A stretch of DNA of 25,000 nt from Anaeromyces robustus. Its lineage: Eukaryota > Neocallimastigomycota > Neocallimastigomycetes > Neocallimastigales > Neocallimastigaceae. Location: assembly GCA_002104895.1 (NCBI GenBank), contig MCFG01000030.1, positions 132,501 through 157,500 on the forward strand, written 5' to 3'. A program made the translations under genes and the position numbers. Below are positions 2,915-24,523 of the stretch, piece by piece. Position 1 is the stretch's first letter, and the number at the start of each line of letters is the position of its first letter. The notes under the pieces are model-generated. The model did not search any database. It saw nothing but the letters and a program-made list of their open reading frames with translations, and had not been told where the DNA came from.

Positions 2915-4392
2915 AAAAAAAAAAGAAAACAAAATAGAACCAAATATGGAGAATTTATAAAAAAAGTAAAAACTTTAATTCTCATAAACACTTAATAAGA
3001 ATAAAATTTCATTGCCTTTTGTTTATATTAAAGCTTTAAAAAGTTTCTCATATTTATATGGGTTAGCTTTCTATTTATTATTAATGTATATATTTATTAT
3101 TTATAATTAGTCTTAAATAGAAAAAAAAAGGAAAAAGAAATTGCTCAAAAACAAATTAAAAAAGATAACGAAAGTTTTATCAATAATTGAATAAAAAGTA
3201 AATAAATATGACAAGAACAAGATATATAATGTAATGAAAAATCCTAATAAAAAAATTTTTTCCCAAATGAAATATTAAAAAAAAATTGAGTTTGGCAAAT
3301 ATATATTAAAAATTTTTTTTATAGAATTATATATTTAAACAACAAGATATAATTTTTTTTCTTAAATTAGATGAATACAGTGGTATATTGTATATAGAAA
3401 AAATTATTTTTTCTTTATATAGTGGATTATATGATTAAAAATATATATATATAAAAATAAACAGTGATTGTTTTATGTTTCATGTTACTGGTAATTATAA
3501 TGTTTATTTATGATAAAAGACATTAATATAGATGGAAAAATGAAATTGAAATGTGGTAAACATGTACAAATGAAATGTAATAATGATGATAAATATAATA
3601 CAGGAAAATATGGGTAAATTTTTTGTGAAAATCTTTTGGGTGATGTTTCAGAAGATTAGGATCATATAGATTTTATATTTATAAAAGTATATATTATTAT
3701 TATTTATATTTTCATTAAATGATATTGCTTTATATTTTTAGAATGTGCTTTTGAAAAAAGAAATAATAAGAAATATTAAAAATAAAATTATAAATAAATA
3801 AAAATATAATATTAAATATTTTTTTAAAAATAATAATTATCACTTTATACTATTTTTTATTAAAATATTCTTTAGTGTTATAATAAATTATTATTATTTT
3901 TTAAATTAAAAATTTTTATGAATTTATTTTTTTATCAGGGTATAAATAGACATAAATAATAAATATTATAATTATATAAATTGTAATTTATATAATTATT
4001 TCTTTAATAATGATTATATTTAAATATATATATTTAAATATCTTTTCTCCCATATAAAACTAAAAGCTATCATATGTATAGAATATAGAATTCTTTCTGA
4101 AAAAAAAATTTTTTTATTTATTTTGACATTTTTTTATGTATAAAACATTGTAAAATAATTTTATATTTATATATGTATTAATATATTAGTATTATATTAA
4201 ATACATTTTATAAATATATTTTTTTTTATAATAAATAATTACATATTACAAAATAAAAATTTCATTATTTTTAGTTAAATTTTAAATTTATCCTAAAAAA
4301 AAAAAATGTATTATTTAATATAAAGATGACATAACATAACATAATATAAAACCTAAATTAGTAACCCTTAATAATTTTTTAAATTTTATCAA

Positions 4393-4431
4393 CCAAGAAT
4401 TATAATATATTATTAATATATTAATTCTTGG
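4393..4431. repeat. Near-perfect 39-nt foldback
   Basis: CCAAGAATTA at the left pairs with TAATTCTTGG at the right, and the inner AATATATTA arms pair across one bulged T. The GC-containing ends make it more than a pure AT palindrome. No target duplication was identified. Confidence 0.45.
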
Positions 4432-5199
4432 AGATAAAAAATTTATAATATGTAATGTAATTTTTTAAATTATAATTTATTCATTTATTTATTGTATATT
4501 AAGCATAAATCAATATCAGAAATTTTAAATAAATAAATAATAAATAAATAGATAAATAAATAAATAAATAAATTAATAAATATTAAATAACAAAAAAAAA
4601 ATTTTTTTTTTTTCATTTTTAAATGAAAGAAATTATTAATTATTAATTATTAATTATACCTTTTATTAATGATAATTTGATACGATGATCATTTAATTAC
4701 ATTGATTTTTGTTAGGAACTTTACATAAATGGAAATCAATTTATATTAAATAAATCAAAAAAAAAAAAAAAAAAAAAAAAAAAAGATGATATTTATTATA
4801 TTAGAATTAATTTTAACCAAATATTACAAATAAAAGTTTTTATTTATTAATATATAATGATATATAATGATATATGATGATATATGATGTATATCTCCCA
4901 AATCCAAAAAAAAAAAAAAAAAAAAAAAGAAAAAAAAATATTATTGACATATAAATGTTGAGACAGAGAATGATTCTAAAGATGTTTGAAAAATGAAACA
5001 AATATGTCTACACTGAAAAAAAAAAAAAAGAATTAAAAGATAAAAAATTGACAGTATATAAATAATGATATTAATGGATAACTTATTTGAAATAGTTAAA
5101 AAAAATAGAAAGTGGAGAAAATATAAATAATTCATAAAAAGAAATAAAAGATAAAAGATGTACCAGAAGATGAATATGAAAATGAAAAACAGTTTTTTT

Positions 5200-6428: not shown

Positions 6429-8129
6429 ATGAAATTTCAAAAGCAAATTTTATATATATTTGTAATCTTATTTTTATTAAATTTGGTTCACGCCGATACT
6501 AAAGATGATACTAATCAAGAACCAGAAGTTGAACAAGTAACAGAGAAAGTAACAGAACAAGTAGTAGAACAAGTTACTGAATCAGTAACTGAACCTGAAG
6601 TTGAACTGGTAAGAGAAAAACAATATCCAAAATTAATACCAGGTCCAATCACTGGTAACTACAATAAAAAGGATTTAAATGAAATTTATGATGAATCAAG
6701 TATTGAAATTGAATGTTCTGGTACTATATGTAATAGTACATCAAGTGATAATGTTTTACTTGATGAAGGAAAAGTTACAATCTCTGAATCTGGTACCTAT
6801 ATTCTTGAAGGTGAATTAAATGGTCAAGTTAATATTATTGCTTCTACGGAAGATAATGTTCATCTTATTTTAAAAAATGCCACTATTTCAAGTGAATTTG
6901 GTCCAGCCATTTATGCTGAAAATTATCATAAATTAGTTATTACACTTGAAGGTCAAAATAATCTTTCTGATACATCAAATTATCCAGAAGGTGCCGTTAA
7001 TTTTGAAAATGAAGATGAAGATGAAGATTTTGAAGAAATTGAAACTAAAACCAATAGTTTAAGACCAAATGCTTGTATTTTTTCTGCTGGTGACCTTACT
7101 TTTAATGGAAAAGGTTCTCTTGATATTAATGGTAATTTTAATATTGGTATTAGATCAAAAAGTAATTTAAAACTTGTTTCTGGTAAAATGAATATTGTTT
7201 CCAAAGGAAGTAGTATTAGAGCTATGCGTTCTATTTCTATTAAAGATGCTGAAATTAATATAGATACTGGTAAATCTGGTATTGTTGTTACTAAAGATAA
7301 TAACCCCTATGAAGGTTATGTTGTTATTGATGGTGGTAAAATTACTGTAAAAGCTGTAAAAGATGGTATTCATGCTGAAACTCATTTAACTGTTAATGAT
7401 GGTATGATTAAAATTCTTGAAAGTGAAGAAGGTCTTGAAGGTCAAATGATTGATATTACTGGAGGTGATATTACTATTGATTCTAGTGATGATGGTATTA
7501 ATGGTTCAAGAGTACAATTACTTAAAGATGCTGTAGCAGAAGGAAAAGTTAGTAAGGAAGAAATTGATGAACAAGTATATATTAGATTTACAGGTGGTAG
7601 GGTTGATGTTAGAGCTGAAGGACCAGATCTTGATGCTATTGATTCCAATGGTTCCTTATATATTGGTGATAATGCTGAAGTTTATTCCAGTGTTGTATAT
7701 GGTGGTGCTTTTGGTCATATGTCTGCTTTAGATTCTGATGGTTATAAATCTATTGAAGCTAATGCTACTGCCCTTATTACAGGTTCTGGAAATATGCCTT
7801 CCTCATCCACAGATGCCACTCCATCTCCAGATGGAATTAAAGGAACCGTTATTAAAAATTATTGGTATGATGAACCAAATTCTTGTACTGTCTTACAACC
7901 TTATGTTAAAGTTAATATTCAAATTCAATTAGAAGGTACATCAGTTATTGTTAAAGATAGTAAAGGTAAAGTTTTACTTGATCATAAACCAAGAGCTCAA
8001 TTTGGTGTTATTTTCTTTACATCACCTGAAATAATTGAAGGTGAAAAATATACTATCACTGCTGGTGAAATAACTAAAGAAGTTAAAGCTAAGGTTGATA
8101 AGAAGAAAAATAATAAAAATGGTAAAAAT

Positions 8130-8132
<3 letters not shown>
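6429..8132 (+). CDS. Secreted DUF4353 carbohydrate-binding-type beta-helix protein
   Basis: Intronless, 567 aa. Residues 1-22 form a signal peptide: basic start, hydrophobic core around 7-20, likely cleavage after H-A at 21-22. Residues 33-60 are a degenerate VTE/VEQ repeat that looks like a linker. From about 115 to 450 short parallel beta-helix-like strands repeat (VTISESGTYILEGEL; GGKITVKAVKDGIHAE; GGDITIDSSDDGINGS), the hallmark of DUF4353. The D/G-rich turns (D-S-S-D-D-G-I-N-G, D-L-D-A-I-D-S-N-G) could bind calcium. An acidic insert lies at 192-206, four N-glycosylation sequons near 102, 150, 178 and 445, and a Lys/Asn-rich tail after 550. A bacterial DUF4353 protein (Cthe_2159 of Clostridium thermocellum, from memory) binds cellulose and pectic acid on a pectate-lyase-like fold, so plant-polysaccharide binding outside the cell is likely; lyase activity is not established. 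No dockerin or membrane anchor is seen. Confidence 0.88.
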
Positions 8133-10563: not shown

Positions 10564-11145
10564 TTATAATTCAATATTTTTTCTTGTACTAATTTTTAAT
10601 TTTAAAAGATCACCAATTTCAGATATTCTTTTTAATAATTCTTCCATATCTTCTCTTGAATGAGAAGCACTACAACAAAAACGTACTCTTGATGAAAGAA
10701 TTGGAGTAGCTGGATAACCTACAACAACCACACCAATTTTTCTTGCAAGAGCTTCTCTTGAAAATGCAGAAATTTTTGCTGGATTATAAAGTAATAATGG
10801 AACAACTGGACTATCCTTATCACCATAAACAATGAATCCCATTTTCTTTAATTCAGTTGAGAAGTATCTTGAATTATCCATTAATTGCTTTATTCTTTTC
10901 TTACCATCATTTGTACCATCTTCTCCCATAATAATTTTGAAACTTGTAATAATTTGTTGACATACTAATGGACTCATACCTTCTGCATAAACATTAGAAT
11001 GTGAATTAAGTCTAATCCAATCAATAACTTTCTATAAAATATTAATAATCATAATTATATAATATATATGACATAAAATATTGAAAATGATAATCAAAGA
11101 AATGATAATAATATTAATTATAGATATATAGATATATAGATATAA

Positions 11146-17310: not shown

Positions 17311-17621
17311 TCCCTAAAAATTGTAATGATTAATATTAATATTATTATGTCATAATTAAATAACATTAAAATTATAATTATACTTAATTAGCTTATTACA
17401 ATATCAATTACGACTTATTTATAATGTAATCGTATAAAACTGTTTATTATTATTACTTATTACATAAATTACATAAATAATTTCACTTATTTTATTATTT
17501 TATTATTATTTCACTATTTATTATTTTAATTAATTTTTTTTTCATTATTATTTTAACTTTGATACAAAAAATGGGTTAAACAATGAAACAAAGTAAAAAA
17601 AAATTTTTTTTTTTGCTATTA

Positions 17622-17696
<75 letters not shown>

Positions 17697-18025
17697 CTAA
17701 ATAAATAAATAAATACTAATTAAATAAATAAATACTAATTAAATAAATAAATAAATAAATAAATAATAAATAATAAATAAATAATAAATAAATAAATAAT
17801 AAATAAATAAATAAATAATAAATAAATAAATAATAAATAAATAAATAATAAATGGATAAATAAATTTATCTCTTTTCTATTTTTGTATTTATATTTATAT
17901 AATATTATATAATATCAAATAATACCAATAAATATTAGAATTATTTATTGTGCTTATAAAAAGAGTTAATTATTATAAATAATAATGAATTAATAACAAA
18001 AAGCTTATTTAATAACAATAATAAT

Positions 18026-18062: not shown

Positions 18063-18564
18063 TGAAGTAAAATAAACATAAATTTAAAATTATTAGTAAA
18101 TAATGCGCCACAATAAATTATTATATAATGTAAATTATATAATAATTTAATACGTATTAAATTTTATTACAATACATAAATTTATTAAGAAATTAATTAA
18201 TAATATAAGAACATAAAATCTATAAAATTATTTTATTATATACATAAATTAATGTATTATTTACATTAATTATAGTTTTATAACATTAGGTAAAATATAG
18301 AAAATAGTGATTAATTATTTATATTAGTTATAATTATAAACTCCTTATTTTTCTCCTTAAAAATAAGGTAAAGAAATAATTATACAAATATTAAATAATT
18401 ATAATTTTAAAAGTATAAAAAGAATTAAAAATATCTAATATAAAATGTAGACAAAAATTAAGTTCAAAAATATAATAAATAATTAATAAATATAATAAAT
18501 TTTATTAAAACAAAATTCTTTCCTTATTTAAAAATTTTCTGAACCTTGAAAGTGTCATACCTCA
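18063..18564 (+). repeat. 5' LTR (502 bp)
   Basis: Starts TGAAGTAAAA and ends CATACCTCA. It should supply promoter, transcription start and polyadenylation for the element. It holds three perfect inverted repeats: 15-bp arms at 18114-18128/18135-18149, 10-bp arms at 18247-18256/18262-18271, and CCTTATTTTT at 18343-18352 against AAAAATAAGG at 18359-18368. TATA-like words are everywhere, so I do not choose one. Confidence 0.95.
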
Positions 18565-18566
18565 TT

Positions 18567-18581
18567 TGGTGGAGATATCGG
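18567..18581 (+). other. Primer binding site (PBS)
   Basis: TGGTGGAGATATCGG begins 2 nt after the LTR. TGG complements the CCA end of a tRNA; the next bases would pair with a discriminator A and an acceptor strand TATCTCC. I cannot name the tRNA. The complement was not seen at the LTR start, so Tf1-type self-priming is not suggested. Confidence 0.6.
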
Positions 18582-18851: not shown

Positions 18852-19841
18852 ATGCAATCTGAAAACATTAATACAGAAAACTCATCTAACAGTGATGGAA
18901 TTCTCCCAACTCCATCCACCCCATTTACTCCAATTTCCCCAAGCCTAGAAAATTCTTTCTCTCTTTTTGCCTCGTCCTTAGAACATTCCATTGCCTCTTT
19001 GGTAAATACTATTAACAGAAATAATAATAGTATTGATTTGGACTCCTTACCAAAAATTGATCCAAGGAGACCAAATGTATGTGGCTGGTACTCAAAATTT
19101 GTTTCTTGGTTAGAGTACCACAACATTACTGATAAGGAACTCATTTTTAAGCTATGTAAGATGGCCACTCCTGATGACCATGCTGAAGATTTAGATGAGT
19201 TACTACTATATGACGATAATAATAGAATCATATACCCTCAATTATTTACTATAAAGAAGAAATTACTAAGTGTAGTTGAGGGTGAAAAGGACCCATACCG
19301 CATATTGGAGAAAATTAAAACACTCTCTATCAGTAGCAAACAAAGTATTGTTGATTTTAATAGAGAGTATAAGAAACTTTACAGAAAGTTAGATAAGAAA
19401 TTCAAGCCAGCTATTACAGTTTTCGATTACGTTAATTCTATTAAATCAAGATCTGAGGCTTGTAAGGGTATTCACGTGAACAAATGTACAGATTTAAATG
19501 AGGCGTATGAATTGGCTGAGCGATATGAAGAAGCTCATCTTAAGTATTCATACCACAAACCAACCACCTCCACTTCCCACTACTTCCATCAAAACAAAAT
19601 TCAACTTAATAGAAGTAACACACCGAACGATAACATGAACAGAAAAGTCATCAAGGAAAGTCACGTGAAAGAAATGGAAGACTTAACCCAGGGCGTAAAA
19701 GAAATGAGGATTAAAACTTGCTACTTCTGCAATGAAGAAGGACATGTTAAGTATGCATGTCCTGCCTATAATAAAATGAAGTATAATGAGTTTAAAAGGA
19801 ACGAATTAGAAGAAGAAGAAACTCCTTTAAACTCAGAATAG
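18852..19841 (+). CDS. gag: Gag of the Ty3/gypsy element
   Basis: 329 aa. It forms the particle and packages element RNA. The first 50 residues are rich in S, T, P and N. A globular, mostly helical stretch from about 60 to 235 (W-Y-S-K-F-V-S-W-L near 80, then K-T-L-S-I-S-S-K-Q, then A-Y-E-L-A-E-R-Y-E-E-A) resembles the capsid-type region of retrotransposon Gag proteins. A CCHC zinc knuckle CX2CX4HX4C uses C290, C293, H298 and C303 for nucleic-acid binding. The C-terminal tail is acidic (EEEE) and ends at TAG 19839-19841. The ATG has A at -3. Pol is in the -1 frame and overlaps the gag end: the frame without stops begins at 19796, so frameshifting in the overlap is needed to make Gag-Pol. Confidence 0.92.
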   Translation: MQSENINTENSSNSDGILPTPSTPFTPISPSLENSFSLFASSLEHSIASLVNTINRNNNSIDLDSLPKIDPRRPNVCGWYSKFVSWLEYHNITDKELIFKLCKMATPDDHAEDLDELLLYDDNNRIIYPQLFTIKKKLLSVVEGEKDPYRILEKIKTLSISSKQSIVDFNREYKKLYRKLDKKFKPAITVFDYVNSIKSRSEACKGIHVNKCTDLNEAYELAERYEEAHLKYSYHKPTTSTSHYFHQNKIQLNRSNTPNDNMNRKVIKESHVKEMEDLTQGVKEMRIKTCYFCNEEGHVKYACPAYNKMKYNEFKRNELEEEETPLNSE

Positions 19842-19873
19842 GGAGTAAACACTCTCCCGTAAATCAAAGTGTT
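19826..19873 (+). promoter_or_regulatory. Candidate -1 programmed ribosomal frameshift signal (slippery site and H-type pseudoknot)
   Basis: The heptamer TTTAAAC (19826-19832) is in the required phase T-TTA-AAC relative to gag, so slipping back one base enters the pol frame. After an 8-nt spacer (19833-19840) GGGAG (19841-19845) pairs with CTCCC (19854-19858), stem 1. Loop 1 is TA. The hairpin loop AACACT (19848-19853) pairs with AGTGTT (19868-19873), stem 2 of 6 bp. The two stems abut with no intervening base. The last loop GTAAATCAA (19859-19867) is A-rich. The gag UAG overlaps the first base of stem 1. Phase, spacing and loop sizes all match known H-type -1 signals. The fold was worked out by hand. 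Confidence 0.85.
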
Positions 19874-22800
19874 AATAAAAATGCCCTTGTCTACGCTTTG
19901 AAAAGGAAGAATAATAATTTTAGAAACAACCGACCAAACAAATATAAAAACAATGAGAAGACAAAACAACCCATTACTATCCCGGATTCTGATGATGAAT
20001 CAGATACCATGGATTTGGAGACAAGGAGGAAAATTTTGATACCAAAGCGTAGATTAACAAAGAATAATAATAATACAAAACTTAATGACAATAATCCTAG
20101 TAATCATGAAACAAACGAAAATGAAACTAATCCAATTGATAGTAAAGAAAATAATCAATTAGATAACAATAAAAAAATAAATTCGGACGAAGAATTTAAG
20201 GAAGATCACATGACCAATCAAGAAATTCTTGATAATAAAAATTCTGGTCACATGACTACCGACATTAATAAAGATGATAATAAAAATTTAAATAATAATA
20301 ACTTTAGTAGTAATATTATTGATAGTAAGAACAATAGTAGTAATGAACTAAATAAAAACATTAACAATAAGAAGGAGGATAAATTAAAAATTAAACCTCC
20401 TAGACATATTAAATTGATTAAGGACAAAGAAGATTATAATATTACTAAGGATCTTTTAAACACTCCTAGTAATATTACCTTTGCCCAATTATTAGACTGT
20501 AGTCCAAGGATTAGGGCTGAATTAATTAAAAATTTAAAATTAGAAAAGTCCGATAAGAAAGACATTATAGGAGCCATAAGAGAATTAGAAATTAACTCTC
20601 TTATAGTTAATGATCCTGACCATTCCTATATTAGTAAAAGAAGGGAGGTCAGTGAGGATGAATTAGCCATTGTTACGGCTAAAATTGAAAACAATTCTGC
20701 CAGACTTTTGGTTGACTCTGGCAGTAATGTAAACATTATCTCAAGGGAATTTTTGGAATCTCTCCCAACAAAATTTCCATTATTAGGAGTAAGTCACATA
20801 CGTCTACTCCAAGCGGTTAGTAACTGCGATCCAATGGAAATTGAGATTGTTAAAATTCCAATTGAAATAGGCTCCTTAAAATTTGAAGCTCCATTCAGGG
20901 TTGTGGATAATCAAGATTCTTATTATGATTTAATTTTAGGTTATTATACACAATTTTTACAAAAGATTTGTATAATAGCTCCTTTAAATTCAATTTATTG
21001 GTTAAATCATAATATGGAACTTGAATTTTTATGTGACATTTTGAATGGATATGAAATGGAAAACGAGGAGAAAGTCTCCTGTTTCATTAAGAAAATAGAA
21101 GACAATAATAGTAATAATAATAATAATGAAATAAAAATTAATGAAAAGTTTCCATTAAATTATGAAAAAGAACCATACATTAATGCCAAAGAATATATTA
21201 ATAGTGATAAATTTTTGGATCACGTGAATCCACAATATATAGACGAAATCGTAATTTTATTAAATAATCACATAGAAGTTGTGGCTACTTCATCGGATGA
21301 TCTCGTACCTTCTACATTAACTCCGCACAAAATTAAATTAAAGAAAGGGGTAAAACCTATAAAATTACATTGTTATAGGTTAAATAAATTAAAATCGGAT
21401 ATTTTAAAAGAAGAGTTAATCAAATTAATCAACAAGGGATTAATAGAACCTTCCACTTCTGAATGGTCTTTTCCTGTGGTTCTAGTCTTAAAATCCAATG
21501 GAAAGTGGCGTTTATGTATCGACTATCGAAAATTAAATGATGCCACAATTCCTGATGTTTACTCTCTTCCTTATATCGATGAAATATTTGCTTCTTTACA
21601 TGGCGCCACTATATTCTCTACGTTAGACCTGTTTTCTGGGTACCATCAAATTTTGATGGACGAAGATAGTGTAGAGCTTACTAGTTTCACAACGAAATTT
21701 GGTAATTTCGTATACAAGGTCATGCCTTTTGGCCTTACGAATGCACCAGCCACATTTCAACGTGAAATGAATAAAATATTATTCGATCTTATTGGAGTCT
21801 GTGTTTTTGTGTTCTTAGATGACATTTTAGTATATTCAAGAAATAAAGAAGAACACCTAGAACATCTCAATATGGTCTTAAAAATTTTCGGAAAGTTTAA
21901 TTTAAAAATTAATATTGAAAAATGTCACTTTATGATGAATGAAGTGCAAATTTTAGGCCATGTTATTAGTAAAAATGGCCTCTCAACTATTCAAAAGAAA
22001 GTGGAAGCTATCAATAATTGGGATAGGCCCACTACAAAAACAGAACTTCGTTCCTTCCTTGGCGCTGTCGGTTACTATAGGAATTTTATTAAAGAATTTT
22101 CTCGGTTAGCTGCGCCACTCAACAAACTATTAAAGAAAGATGCTAAATTTAACTGGTTCGACGAACAACAAAATGCCTTTGACCAGTTAAAAAGTTGTTT
22201 AATTAATGCACCAATTCTCCGTTTCCCTGATTTTACCAAACCCTTCATCATTCGTACTGATGCATCCGGTGAAGGTATAGGTGGCGTTCTACTACAAATT
22301 GATCCGGCTGACAATAAAGAACACCCGGTTCATTATGTGAGTAGAACTCTTTCAGCGGCCGAAAGAAGATACTGTATAACTGACCTTGAAGGAGTAGCTG
22401 TACACTATTGTGTAAAGCAATTTAAACCATATATTGAGGGAAACCAAGAGAAAACAGTGGTTTATACGGATCATAAACCACTAGTCGGATTATTTGGAAA
22501 TAAAGAACCCAATAACGGTAGGCACGCTCGCTGGTGTATTGATTTAAGTATGCTAGGTGTACGTGTGGCCTATGAAAAGGGAAAGAAGAATCACCTTGCA
22601 GATTCACTTTCCAGAATTAAAAGTAAAAATGTAGAAGACTCAACAAATAATGACAATTACGTAGATAAAAATGTGGCTAAAGAAACTTTATGTAATGCCT
22701 TGATAGCAGAAAATGTAGAAGATAATGTAAATGAAATTAATGTAGCTGAAAATAATGTAAAAGAAACTAATGTAGAAGAGAATAACGTAGAAGATATTAA

Positions 22801-23995
22801 TGAAGAAGAAGAAGAAAATGAAGAAGAACAACTGGTAAGTTTGATGAAGAAATTCTTGAGTGAAAGAATTATAGAAATCAACGACCAGAAATATCTCCTC
22901 GACAATGGCCTTAAAAGAAGAATAGTTACTCATGAAGAAGAGAAGATAAAATTAATATGGGAATCTCACAAAATTGGGCACGAGGGCATTGAGAAGACCT
23001 ATTACCGGTTGAGAAGACATTTTTATTGGAAGAACATGATGGATGATATCAAGAAAACAATCAAATGCTGTACCAAATGTCAATTAAATAGACCAGAAAG
23101 ACTACCTGAACCAACGGAAAGATTTGCTTCAACAGTTGAAGGTCCCTTCGTCCATTTAGGTCTTGATATAATCGGACCCCTACCAATAACAGAAAGAAAT
23201 AACAGGTACATCCTTGTAGCCGTTGACTATTTCACGAAGTGGGTTGAAGCTGAACCTACACCCACTATCACTGCCAAAGACATCATATACTTTTTAAGTA
23301 AAATCTTTGCTCGACATGGCACGCCTCAATACATTACAGTGGATAATGGCGTTCAATTTGTGGCTGACCTTACAAAAATCTTCTTGGATATGTATGATGT
23401 ATACATAAAATTTACTACCACTTACCACCCTGAGTCCAATGGTTTAACCGAAAATAGAAATAAAGAAATCTCCAAAGAAATTAGACTATTAGGAGAAACG
23501 AATCAAGACTGGGATTTAGTTTTGCCATCGGCTTTGTGGGCAATAAGAACATCCAGGAACAACGCCACAAAATATTCGAGTTTTGAGCTATTATACGGAC
23601 GTATTGACCAACAACCGTTCGAATTAGCCACAATATCCCAAACGTATAATAACAAAAATGACAAATCGTCCGACGAAATTTTACTAGAAAAATTTTGCGA
23701 TCATTACCAATGGACTTTAGATGCTTATCATAATCTTAAGAGTAAAGCCAAAAGATGGGAAAAAGAAAGGAATGAACTATATAAAAATAATAAACAAAAC
23801 CAAATCAAAAAGGGAGATTTAGTTAAAGTAAGAAATTTTACACGTCTGAAATTAGAACCCTACTTCACAGGTCCTTACAAGGTAGTTGGAATAAATTTTA
23901 ATACGGTTAAATTAATGGACCCCGATTCTGAGGAAGAATTAGAAAGACCTGTCCACCTAAAGAATGTTATAAAAATCTCTACAACTTCAGAGTAA
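19832..23995 (+). CDS. pol: Pol of the Ty3/gypsy element (protease, RT, RNase H, integrase), -1 frame
   Basis: Reached by -1 frameshift at 19832, giving 1387 Pol residues and a Gag-Pol of about 1714 aa. Residues below count from the TTG at 19898, which I do not think is a start. An N/D/K-rich linker fills about 1-190. Aspartic protease: L-V-D-S-G-S-N, D273. Reverse transcriptase, about 490-700: catalytic D577 (STLDLFSGYHQ) and FLDD at 639-642. RNase H: D788 (RTDAS), E831, D858 (YTDHKPL), D902. A degenerate N-V-E-E-N repeat and E-rich run at about 930-975 links to integrase. Integrase: HHCC with H1024, H1028, C1058, C1061; catalytic D1090, D1149, E1185 with 35 residues between the last two; GPY/F module at G1325-P-Y. 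The protein ends about 40 residues after GPY, with no chromodomain. All catalytic residues are present, so the enzyme set looks functional. Confidence 0.93.
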   Translation, partial: LRIGSKHSPVNQSVNKNALVYALKRKNNNFRNNRPNKYKNNEKTKQPITIPDSDDESDTMDLETRRKILIPKRRLTKNNNNTKLNDNNPSNHETNENETNPIDSKENNQLDNNKKINSDEEFKEDHMTNQEILDNKNSGHMTTDINKDDNKNLNNNNFSSNIIDSKNNSSNELNKNINNKKEDKLKIKPPRHIKLIKDKEDYNITKDLLNTPSNITFAQLLDCSPRIRAELIKNLKLEKSDKKDIIGAIRELEINSLIVNDPDHSYISKRREVSEDELAIVTAKIENNSARLLVDSGSNVNIISREFLESLPTKFPLLGVSHIRLLQAVSNCDPMEIEIVKIPIEIGSLKFEAPFRVVDNQDSYYDLILGYYTQFLQKICIIAPLNSIYWLNHNMELEFLCDILNGYEMENEEKVSCFIKKIEDNNSNNNNNEIKINEKFPLNYEKEPYINAKEYINSDKFLDHVNPQYIDEIVILLNNHIEVVATSSDDLVPSTLTPHKIKLKKGVKPIKLHCYRLNKLKSDILKEELIKLINKGLIEPSTSEWSFPVVLVLKSNGKWRLCIDYRKLNDATIPDVYSLPYIDEIFASLHGATIFSTLDLFSGYHQILMDEDSVELTSFTTKFGNFVYKVMPFGLTNAPATFQREMNKILFDLIGVCVFVFLDDILVYSRNKEEHLEHLNMVLKIFGKFNLKINIEKCHFMMNEVQILGHVISKNGLSTIQKKVEAINNWDRPTTKTELRSFLGAVGYYRNFIKEFSRLAAPLNKLLKKDAKFNWFDEQQNAFDQLKSCLINAPILRFPDFTKPFIIRTDASGEGIGGVLLQIDPADNKEHPVHYVSRTLSAAERRYCITDLEGVAVHYCVKQFKPYIEGNQEKTVVYTDHKPLVGLFGNKEPNNGRHARWCIDLSMLGVRVAYEKGKKNHLADSLSRIKSKNVEDSTNNDNYVDKNVAKETLCNALIAENVEDNVNEINVAENNVKETNVEENNVEDINEEEEENEEEQLVSLMKKFLSERIIEINDQKYLLDNGLKRRIVTHEEEKIKLIWESHKIGHEGIEKTYYRLRRHFYWKNMMDDIKKTIKCCTKCQLNRPERLPEPTERFASTVEGPFVHLGLDIIGPLPITERNNRYILVAVDYFTKWVEAEPTPTITAKDIIYFLSKIFARHGTPQYITVDNGVQFVADLTKIFLDMYDVYIKFTTTYHPESNGLTENRNKEISKEIRLLGETNQDWDLVLPSALWAIRTSRNNATKYSSFELLYGRIDQQPFELATISQTYNNKNDKSSDEILLEKFCDHYQWTLDAYHNLKSKAKRWEKERNELYKNNKQNQIKKGDLVKVRNFTRLKLEPYFTGPYKVVGINFNTVKLMDPDSEEELERPVHLKNVIKISTTSE

Positions 23996-24017: not shown

Positions 24018-24519
24018 TGAAGTAAAATAAACATAAATTTAAAATTATTAGTAAATAATGCGCCACAATAAATTATTATATAATGTAAATTATATAATAA
24101 TTTAATACGTATTAAATTTTATTACAATACATAAATTTATTAAGAAATTAATTAATAATATAAGAACATAAAATCTATAAAATTATTTTATTATATACAT
24201 AAATTAATGTATTATTTACATTAATTATAGTTTTATAACATTAGGTAAAATATAGAAAATAGTGATTAATTATTTATATTAGTTATAATTATAAACTCCT
24301 TATTTTTCTCCTTAAAAATAAGGTAAAGAAATAATTATACAAATATTAAATAATTATAATTTTAAAAGTATAAAAAGAATTAAAAATATCTAATATAAAA
24401 TGTAGACAAAAATTAAGTTCAAAAATATAATAAATAATTAATAAATATAATAAATTTTATTAAAACAAAATTCTTTCCTTATTTAAAAATTTTCTGAACC
24501 TTGAAAGTGTCATACCTCA
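24018..24519 (+). repeat. 3' LTR (502 bp)
   Basis: Reads as identical to 18063-18564 along its full length at an offset of 5955. It begins 22 bp after the pol stop at 23993-23995. Confidence 0.95.
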
Positions 24520-24523
24520 TCTT
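24520..24523. repeat. Target-site duplication, right copy (TCTT)
   Basis: TCTT directly follows the terminal CA of the 3' LTR. Confidence 0.8.

Follow-up and report, generated by a model that had tools for sequence, protein, structure and literature searches.

A candidate programmed -1 frameshift signal between gag and pol in Ty3-type retrotransposons of the anaerobic fungus Anaeromyces robustus

How is Pol made by a fungal LTR element whose pol frame is not the frame of gag? Among fungal LTR elements, those studied most either shift by +1 (Ty1, Ty3) or have an in-frame stop codon (Tca2). The element considered here lies in a 25-kb stretch of DNA (the window), which is part of the 70-Mb genome of Anaeromyces robustus, a member of the anaerobic gut fungi (Neocallimastigomycota). 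An earlier, sequence-only reading had proposed that its gag and pol are joined by a complete -1 cassette, namely, a slippery heptamer, a spacer and a pseudoknot. From comparison with its relatives, the cassette is very probably a programmed -1 ribosomal frameshift signal, and the element most likely yields a little Gag-Pol beside Gag through -1 slippage.

The element and its gag-pol junction

The element is of the Ty3 type and extends from 18063 to about 24520. Its 5' LTR (18063..18565, + strand) is a 503-bp block that is identical, with 0 differences, to the 503-bp block of the 3' LTR (24018..24520, +). The LTR proper is probably the TG...CA segment at 18063-18564, and the last T of the 3' block may belong to the target site; the flanks agree with a 4-bp target duplication, TCTT. 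The gag ORF (18852..19841, +) encodes 329 amino acids ending in ...TPLNSE-stop, with a CCHC zinc knuckle that scores 20.2 bits against PF00098, slightly below the cut-off of 20.8. A public Gag record from A. robustus (P0001) differs from it in 1 residue. The pol frame is open over 19796..23995 (+) and has a protease-like motif, LVDSGS (spotted by eye), together with reverse transcriptase (RVT_1, 3e-37), RNase H (RT_RNaseH, 8e-32) and integrase (Integrase_H2C2, 1e-15; rve, 1e-9) domains. The LTRs, the target duplication and the placing of RT-RNase H ahead of integrase identify a Ty3/gypsy LTR retrotransposon. A candidate tRNA primer site, TGGTGGAGATATCGG, is present at 18567-18581, immediately inside the 5' LTR; no tRNA gene was found in the window.

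A 201-base query from the junction found the window sequence with no differences in contigs C458 and C428, a match identical across 178 bases in C267, and one of 93% identity across 81 bases in C336. In C267 (1986-5385; loci L009 and L012), ~2.4 kb of other sequence separates Gag residues 282 and 283 in a copy of the window's element, as judged from the match coordinates. Directly upstream of the element in the window is a long (TAAA)n-type microsatellite (17620-17860). Further away are a 567-aa ORF (6429-8132, +) with a Cthe_2159 carbohydrate-binding domain (PF14262, 2.7e-57), likely a host gene, and a 137-aa ORF (10564-10977, -) that resembles the C-terminal region of class I/II aminotransferases (PF00155, 3e-11), perhaps a single exon.

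The pol frame is -1 relative to gag. The gag stop codon, TAG, is at 19839-19841. As the last pol-frame stop is at 19793-19795, pol is open only from 19796, a coordinate that the sequence-only reading had given correctly to the base. The overlap, 19796..19841 (+), is the sole stretch where a -1 shift can join the frames. It contains the heptamer TTTAAAC (19826..19832, +), read T TTA AAC in the gag frame, which proved to be the only in-phase X XXY YYZ site within 19780-19860, its phase being as claimed. TTTAAAA at 19791 was rejected as a slip site, being out of phase. The heptamer is followed by a spacer of 8 nt (19833..19840, +), which takes in the TA of the gag stop codon. Stem 1 (S1) can form between GGGAG (19841..19845, +) and CTCCC (19854..19858, +), and stem 2 (S2) between AACACT (19848..19853, +) and AGTGTT (19868..19873, +). 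Loop 1 (L1) is 2 nt (19846..19847, +), the 3' strand of S1 adjoins the 5' strand of S2 directly, and the long loop, GTAAATCAA, is A-rich and 9 nt in length (19859..19867, +). The pairing is that of an H-type pseudoknot, with S1 of 5 bp, L1 of 2 nt, S2 of 6 bp, a long loop of 9 nt and 0 inter-stem bases, every part agreeing with the earlier description. The frames, the in-phase heptamer, the spacing and the possible pairing are directly established.

A full cassette was defined as a heptamer, a spacer of 5-9 nt, S1 of 5 bp with 3 G-C pairs, and a flush S2 of 5-7 bp. A search of the window on both strands gave a single occurrence. When the gag-pol stretch was simulated by a first-order Markov model, 1 cassette arose in 400 x 5144 nt, a count requiring neither phase nor position. 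Both results uphold the earlier view that the cassette is unlikely to have arisen by chance. When folded without pseudoknots, S1 is the MFE structure; the z score is -3.12 for 33 nt (2/200 shuffles equally good) and -2.30 for 53 nt (7/200). Rfam at gathering thresholds gave no match in the window. The junction has the canonical layout of a eukaryotic -1 signal, an X XXY YYZ site in phase within the 0/-1 overlap and a structure 8 nt downstream, within the much-studied spacer range of 5-9 nt (PMC5009743). U_UUA_AAC, along with A_AAA_AAC, is among the most shift-prone sites with mammalian ribosomes (PMC5009743).

In the mechanism that we propose, most ribosomes would translate gag and terminate at the UAG at 19839-19841. 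A minority would pause as the pseudoknot, 8 nt past the heptamer, reaches the mRNA entrance channel, and would undergo a tandem -1 slip, the P-site tRNA moving from UUA (Leu) to UUU and the A-site tRNA from AAC (Asn) to AAA. The shifted ribosomes would continue into pol, giving a minor Gag-Pol product (...TPLN-LRIGSKHSP...), and the shift would set the Gag:Gag-Pol ratio. Folding of the RNA on the ribosome, the shifting, its rate, the Gag:Gag-Pol ratio and the effect on particle assembly are what we infer.

Conservation of the junction in related elements

Relatives were collected from the same genome in three ways. A Gag search gave at least 36 matches, and loci were taken for 30 of 36. An RT search gave at least 105 matches, and the stretch upstream of RT was taken for 40 of 105. 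In addition, 18 short gag ends were chosen without regard to the heptamer. The three sets share families. Identity to the window Gag is 18-27% for the five Gags aligned from other families, and the Gag alignment offers no stretch conserved enough to scan with. Gag and RT scans of viral contigs gave no relatives.

In the Gag-hit set, 12 of the 30 loci have a gag frame that runs into a -1 frame of 150 codons or more. An in-phase heptamer is present no more than 30 nt before the gag stop in 11 of the 12. Although the stem was not used as a filter, a 5-bp stem with every pair formed begins 8 nt past the heptamer in each of the 11. The twelfth, L016, has an early stop in gag, and its cassette is located further on. 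Heptamer and stem are likewise present in L015 (4 pairs) and L034, where the -1 frames are shorter. The 16 remaining loci comprise 15 without such a heptamer and one, L013, whose heptamer is lost at the contig end; in several of the 15, the cassette is found elsewhere and the gag frame is therefore broken there. In seven of the 40 RT-proximal loci, a -1 pol frame is overlapped by an ORF of 290 aa or more in the gag frame. An in-phase heptamer is present in 6 of these 7 readable loci, with a stem 8 nt on in 6/6. The seventh, L038, has no heptamer, and since its Gag tail is unlike that of its close relative L037 (public model P0009), loss of the heptamer by deletion is suggested. Of the 18 gag ends, 3 stop at a contig end before the junction and 15 reach it; by eye, 14 of the 15 have an in-phase heptamer adjoining the Gag end and, 8 nt further, a stem, in which L078 and L081 each have one mismatched pair. 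The remaining one, L077, is without heptamer. In C607 (L023/L052), pol is in +1 to a truncated gag and there is no heptamer. L077 and C607 are tentatively read as damaged copies. The sequence-only reading looked to related copies to keep the heptamer and the stem, as all but one of the copies with readable frames do in each of the Gag-hit and RT-proximal sets.

The position of the stem is also fixed. When the sampled DNA was scanned for a heptamer, an 8-nt spacer and a stem, the loop being allowed to be 7, 8 or 9, all 41 hits had a loop of 8; the 41 count overlapping loci and identical copies, and represent 22 distinct 70-mers in 11 clusters at 75%. Among 2099 distinct TTTAAA[ACT]/AAAAAA[CT] contexts in sampled genome DNA, 26 have a GC-rich 5-bp stem at spacer 8 and loop 8; the contexts include related copies, and the 26 hits are not independent events. 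Other spacer/loop cells have 0-2 each, except (7,10) with 9 and (6,12) with 6, both of which have the same helix register as spacer 8/loop 8.

The conservation bears on whether gag and pol are joined by splicing, the frameshift-like sequences being left over or coincidental. One gene model, P0021 (BCR32DRAFT_247656, contig C151 of L037), joins mid-gag to the pol frame just before S1 in an intron-like manner. The model, however, loses the Gag C-terminus and the zinc knuckle and resembles what a gene caller makes in bridging two frames; the apparent intron seems to have been produced in annotation by the change of frame. Moreover, splicing would not lead different families to retain an in-phase heptamer near the stop, followed 8 nt later by a stem. 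A spliced mRNA is thus very improbable, and -1 frameshifting is the preferred reading.

Gag C-termini in public proteins were also considered. U_UUA_AAY-stop and A_AAA_AAY-stop would predict Gags ending in -LN and -KN, respectively, a prediction followed here in protein ends rather than codons. A Gag profile found 23 relatives (P0002-P0024) in a protein collection: 13 (P0005, an A. robustus protein, among them) end in -LN, 2 in -LNSE and 1 in -LK. Of the other 7, five end ahead of the zinc knuckle or inside it, and two, P0009 and P0021, are altered A. robustus gene models. In the hairpin families described below, 50 of the 62 Gag relatives (P0025-P0086, scored among the 8000 candidates with most shared words) end precisely in -KN. 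The background rates of the pairs LN and KN are 0.011 and 0.038 per site. None of the five Gag models labelled Orpsp1, which we take to be Orpinomyces, ends in -LN or -KN.

In some more distant Ty3 elements of this genome, with RT about 40% identical, a single open frame of about 1400-1640 aa covers both RT and the Gag match (L064, L066, L067; C56, C459 and C249, the last three with 1601-aa frames). Split-frame and fused-frame elements thus coexist in one host.

Stem 1, stem 2 and their replacements

A total of 23 representative junctions were compared, with TTTAAAC in 8, TTTAAAT in 8, AAAAAAC in 6 and AAAAAAT in 1. The gag stop is 0-2 codons past the slip site in 22 of the 23; in L076, a damaged copy, it has been lost. 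The sequence-only reading had drawn attention to the overlap of UAG with stem 1. The overlap exists in the window, by one base, and is shared only by L005; in the 20 others the stop is within the spacer. A functional role for the overlap was dropped, since it is confined to the window's family; what the compared sequences conserve is a stop close to the slip site rather than a stop-stem overlap. An alternative is that Pol is made by stop-codon readthrough or by termination-reinitiation. A pseudoknot 3' of the gag stop is the layout of MuLV readthrough and was proposed for Tca2 also (PMC2194720). Against this, the heptamer is constant while the identity and the distance of the stop vary, and readthrough alone would end at the next gag-frame stop because pol is -1 and not in the gag frame. 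This alternative has hardly any probability left compared with a -1 shift.

S1 is fully paired, wobbles allowed, in 19 of the 23 junctions. Its outer pair is missing in L015, L026 and L078, and L091 has a different hairpin, described below. In L015 and L026, S1 is 4 bp, and a plain fold of L015 favours a different structure (z 0.00). S1 occurs as GGGAG/CTCCC, GGAAG/CTTCC, AGGAG/CTCCT and GGACT/AGTCC in rows that were selected by pairing, the table being biased for that reason and not our main proof of covariation; GGGAG and GGAAG recur in the stem-free count.

S2 is present in 13 of the 23 junctions, flush with S1 in 12, and is made of different sequences in four groups. The first is the window and L005 (AACACT/AGTGTT), and the second is L015 (GCGTC/GGCGC). 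The third has six junctions of the L037 kind (GCAAT/ATTGC and wobble variants; 6 bp in L049), and the fourth has three of the L057 kind (GAAGCA/TGCTTC). In L026, S2 is only 4 bp and non-flush. The long loop is 9 nt in the window group, 9 in L015, 12 in the L037 group, 14 in the L057 group and 10 in L026. Six junctions, L044, L048, L014, L031, L025 and L028, have S1 without a convincing S2, which is missing or limited to 2-3 bp in the L044, L048/L014 and L031/L025/L028 families. The remaining four, L072, L082, L088 and L091, have a longer hairpin at the same position, of 7 bp by folding in L072 and L082 and, by eye, alike in L088 and bulged in L091. In L082 (66-86) and its kin L083-L089, a second hairpin comes directly after the 7-bp hairpin; in L082, the only case folded, the two together have -20.5 kcal/mol and z -3.85, with 0/200 shuffles equally good. 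A tandem-hairpin stimulator is possible in these kin. The two-stem pseudoknot of the sequence-only reading is thus general in part: S1 and the 8-nt spacer are kept in relatives, while S2 is absent or replaced by a hairpin in some.

Where S2 is present, its sequences pair with their own partners. Stacking of the four group representatives sums to -35.7 kcal/mol with own partners vs. -23.3 when partners are swapped in the most favorable way. In the window and L015 groups, the loops do not pair with the downstream stretch of any other group. Loops of the L037 and L057 groups pair with each other's partners, some better than with their own, so that these two groups are not independent; their S2s have a word in common. 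Taken over the individual members, the mean is -7.7 for own and -2.1 for cross pairings. The weakest own value is that of L026, which is 0 because its S2 is 4 bp and non-flush, and none of the 116 cross values is poorer. The S2 of L026 is decayed. In 3000 random pol 26-mers, the numbers pairing equally well were 0 for the window, 54 for L015, 8 for L037 and 17 for L057; for other members they were 0 (L049), 22 (L035), 8 (L078), 59 (L076) and 134 (L079), the support being weaker in L076 and L079. Conservation and re-pairing across families are direct observations, and compensatory change, a canonical mark of -1 signals, is seen for S2 in four groups, one word being common to two of them. Covariation had been proposed as a check on both stems: it was obtained in S2, re-paired in the four groups, whereas the rows for S1 had been chosen by pairing.

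Could the stems be conserved on account of the proteins? The pol-frame residues G-[SR] and [ST]-P over S1 and L-N at the Gag end (the tail being P/H-L-N) are common to several families, as would be expected if the conservation were at the protein level. Since the stems lie at or after the gag stop, coding constraint on them can come from the pol frame alone. In random synonymous recoding that followed the codon usage of the window's pol, with 5000 trials per junction, S1 stayed intact in 8-660 trials at 12 junctions (lost in 4340-4992). The hairpin junctions are the weak cases, with a 5-bp S1 surviving in 635 and 660 of 5000 (about 13%). S1 and S2 together survived in 0-4 trials, being lost in at least 4996, at 7 junctions, of which L035 and L076 are from damaged copies. 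In the GGAAG/CTTCC families, P is changed to S while the pair is kept. Also, the heptamer is complete in 14 of the 15 gag ends taken regardless of it, including the wobble base before XXY. In the diverged copy L005, the pseudoknot has 0/33 changes vs. 134/526 aligned bases downstream (Fisher p 9e-5); the nearest downstream stretch has 16/93. Protein-level conservation is accordingly a most improbable account, and constraint on the RNA is preferred.

A more serious alternative is that the heptamer and S1 alone act, as in a hairpin-stimulated -1 shift, the S2 pairing of the window being incidental. S2 is absent in L044 and L048/L014, is only GGC/GYC in L031/L025/L028, and gives way to the longer hairpin in L072/L082/L091. 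Dinucleotide shuffling of the 24 nt after S1 supports S2 by itself weakly, with p 0.032 for the window and a Fisher p of 0.0098 for 11 clusters; the likely reason is that a sequence of this length keeps its few GC-holding words when shuffled. Against an incidental S2 stand the rarity with which both stems outlast recoding and the pairing of differing S2 sequences with their own partners. We consider it unlikely that S2 is incidental in the window, and favor a pseudoknot there. In the lineage as a whole, a hairpin may suffice, as S2 is not universal. The bare 5-bp S1 with an A-rich 3' flank is perhaps a mini-knot of 2-3 bp.

These results give a slight edge to the view that, in one radiating group of Ty3 elements of anaerobic fungi, the heptamer, the near stop and the 8-nt spacer are fixed, and the stimulator behind them is exchanged: a flush H-type pseudoknot with several S2s, a bare 5-bp S1, or a 7-bp or bulged hairpin, with other Ty3 lineages of the same genome having one-frame Gag-Pol. 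An RT tree (100 aa) had support too weak for ordering of the stimulator changes. For the proposal of a frameshift signal as first made, the kept heptamer, spacer and S1 give support; universality of S2 and conservation of the stop-stem overlap did not hold. The comparisons support the signal more strongly than the window sequence alone could.

Relation to known signals and significance

The closest dimensions are found in retroviruses. In the order spacer/S1/S2/L1/long loop/inter-stem, the values are 8/5/6/2/9/0 in the window, 8/5/6/2/11/0 in puma lentivirus and, again near, 7/6/6/1/12/0 in SRV-1; the gag-pro/pol pseudoknots of these two viruses, HERV-K10 and MMTV have nearly the dimensions of the window, going by the entries in PMC3835772. 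Their heptamers are AAAAAAC or GGGAAAC, unlike UUUAAAC of the window, and the comparison is of retroviruses with a fungal Ty3 element. Among the coronavirus and arterivirus signals of PMC3835772, the heptamer is the same, UUUAAAC, and coronavirus pseudoknots have L1 of 1-2 nt. However, S1 is mostly 10-14 bp in those entries (PEDV and SHFV are listed with 5), and the window, with S1 of 5 bp and a 9-nt loop, lacks the long S1 of the coronavirus type. In the classification given there, H-pseudoknots of CPK-1 type have S2 of 6-7 bp, L1 of 1-2 nt and no inter-stem base (PMC3835772). The window (6/2/0) belongs with them; the S1-only and hairpin families do not, and several relatives have S2 of 5 bp, under the CPK-1 range.

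In organization, the window resembles animal Ty3/gypsy elements with pol in -1, which have Ty3-type gag/pol and a -1 heptamer, and also their derivatives PEG10 and PNMA, which have a -1 heptamer and a pseudoknot stimulator (PMC5009743). These are from other hosts, whereas here a multi-family series is found in one fungal genome. A 2003 survey had pol in -1 in 28 of 51 animal LTR elements, many with classical heptamers; in its fungal elements +1 and -1 were less skewed, -1 being already known, according to the account of it in PMC5009743. Candida Tca2 has an in-frame UGA followed, after a spacer of 8 nt, by a potential pseudoknot; there is no frame change, and its junction gave no readthrough in yeast (PMC2194720). 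Among the open-licence papers listed in a literature search, we found no report of such a -1 signal in anaerobic fungi. Yeast Ty3 is also a fungal LTR element with a translational step for Gag-Pol; its shift is +1, by another mechanism, vs. -1 in the window.

The signal is ordinary in kind; the clarity of its natural variants is uncommon. What gives it significance is that a -1 signal resembling those of retroviruses, and strongly supported by comparison, is present in a fungal phylum that diverged early. For annotators, it accounts for gene sets in which gag and pol are separate or are connected through a doubtful intron. With pseudoknot, S1 only and hairpin as natural variants at a fixed distance, two standing questions become testable: how a pseudoknot and a hairpin compare in effect at the same position, and how easily stimulators interconvert in evolution. 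If stimulators are indeed exchanged behind a fixed heptamer and spacer, these elements would be a natural mutagenesis series revealing the real requirements of a fungal ribosome.
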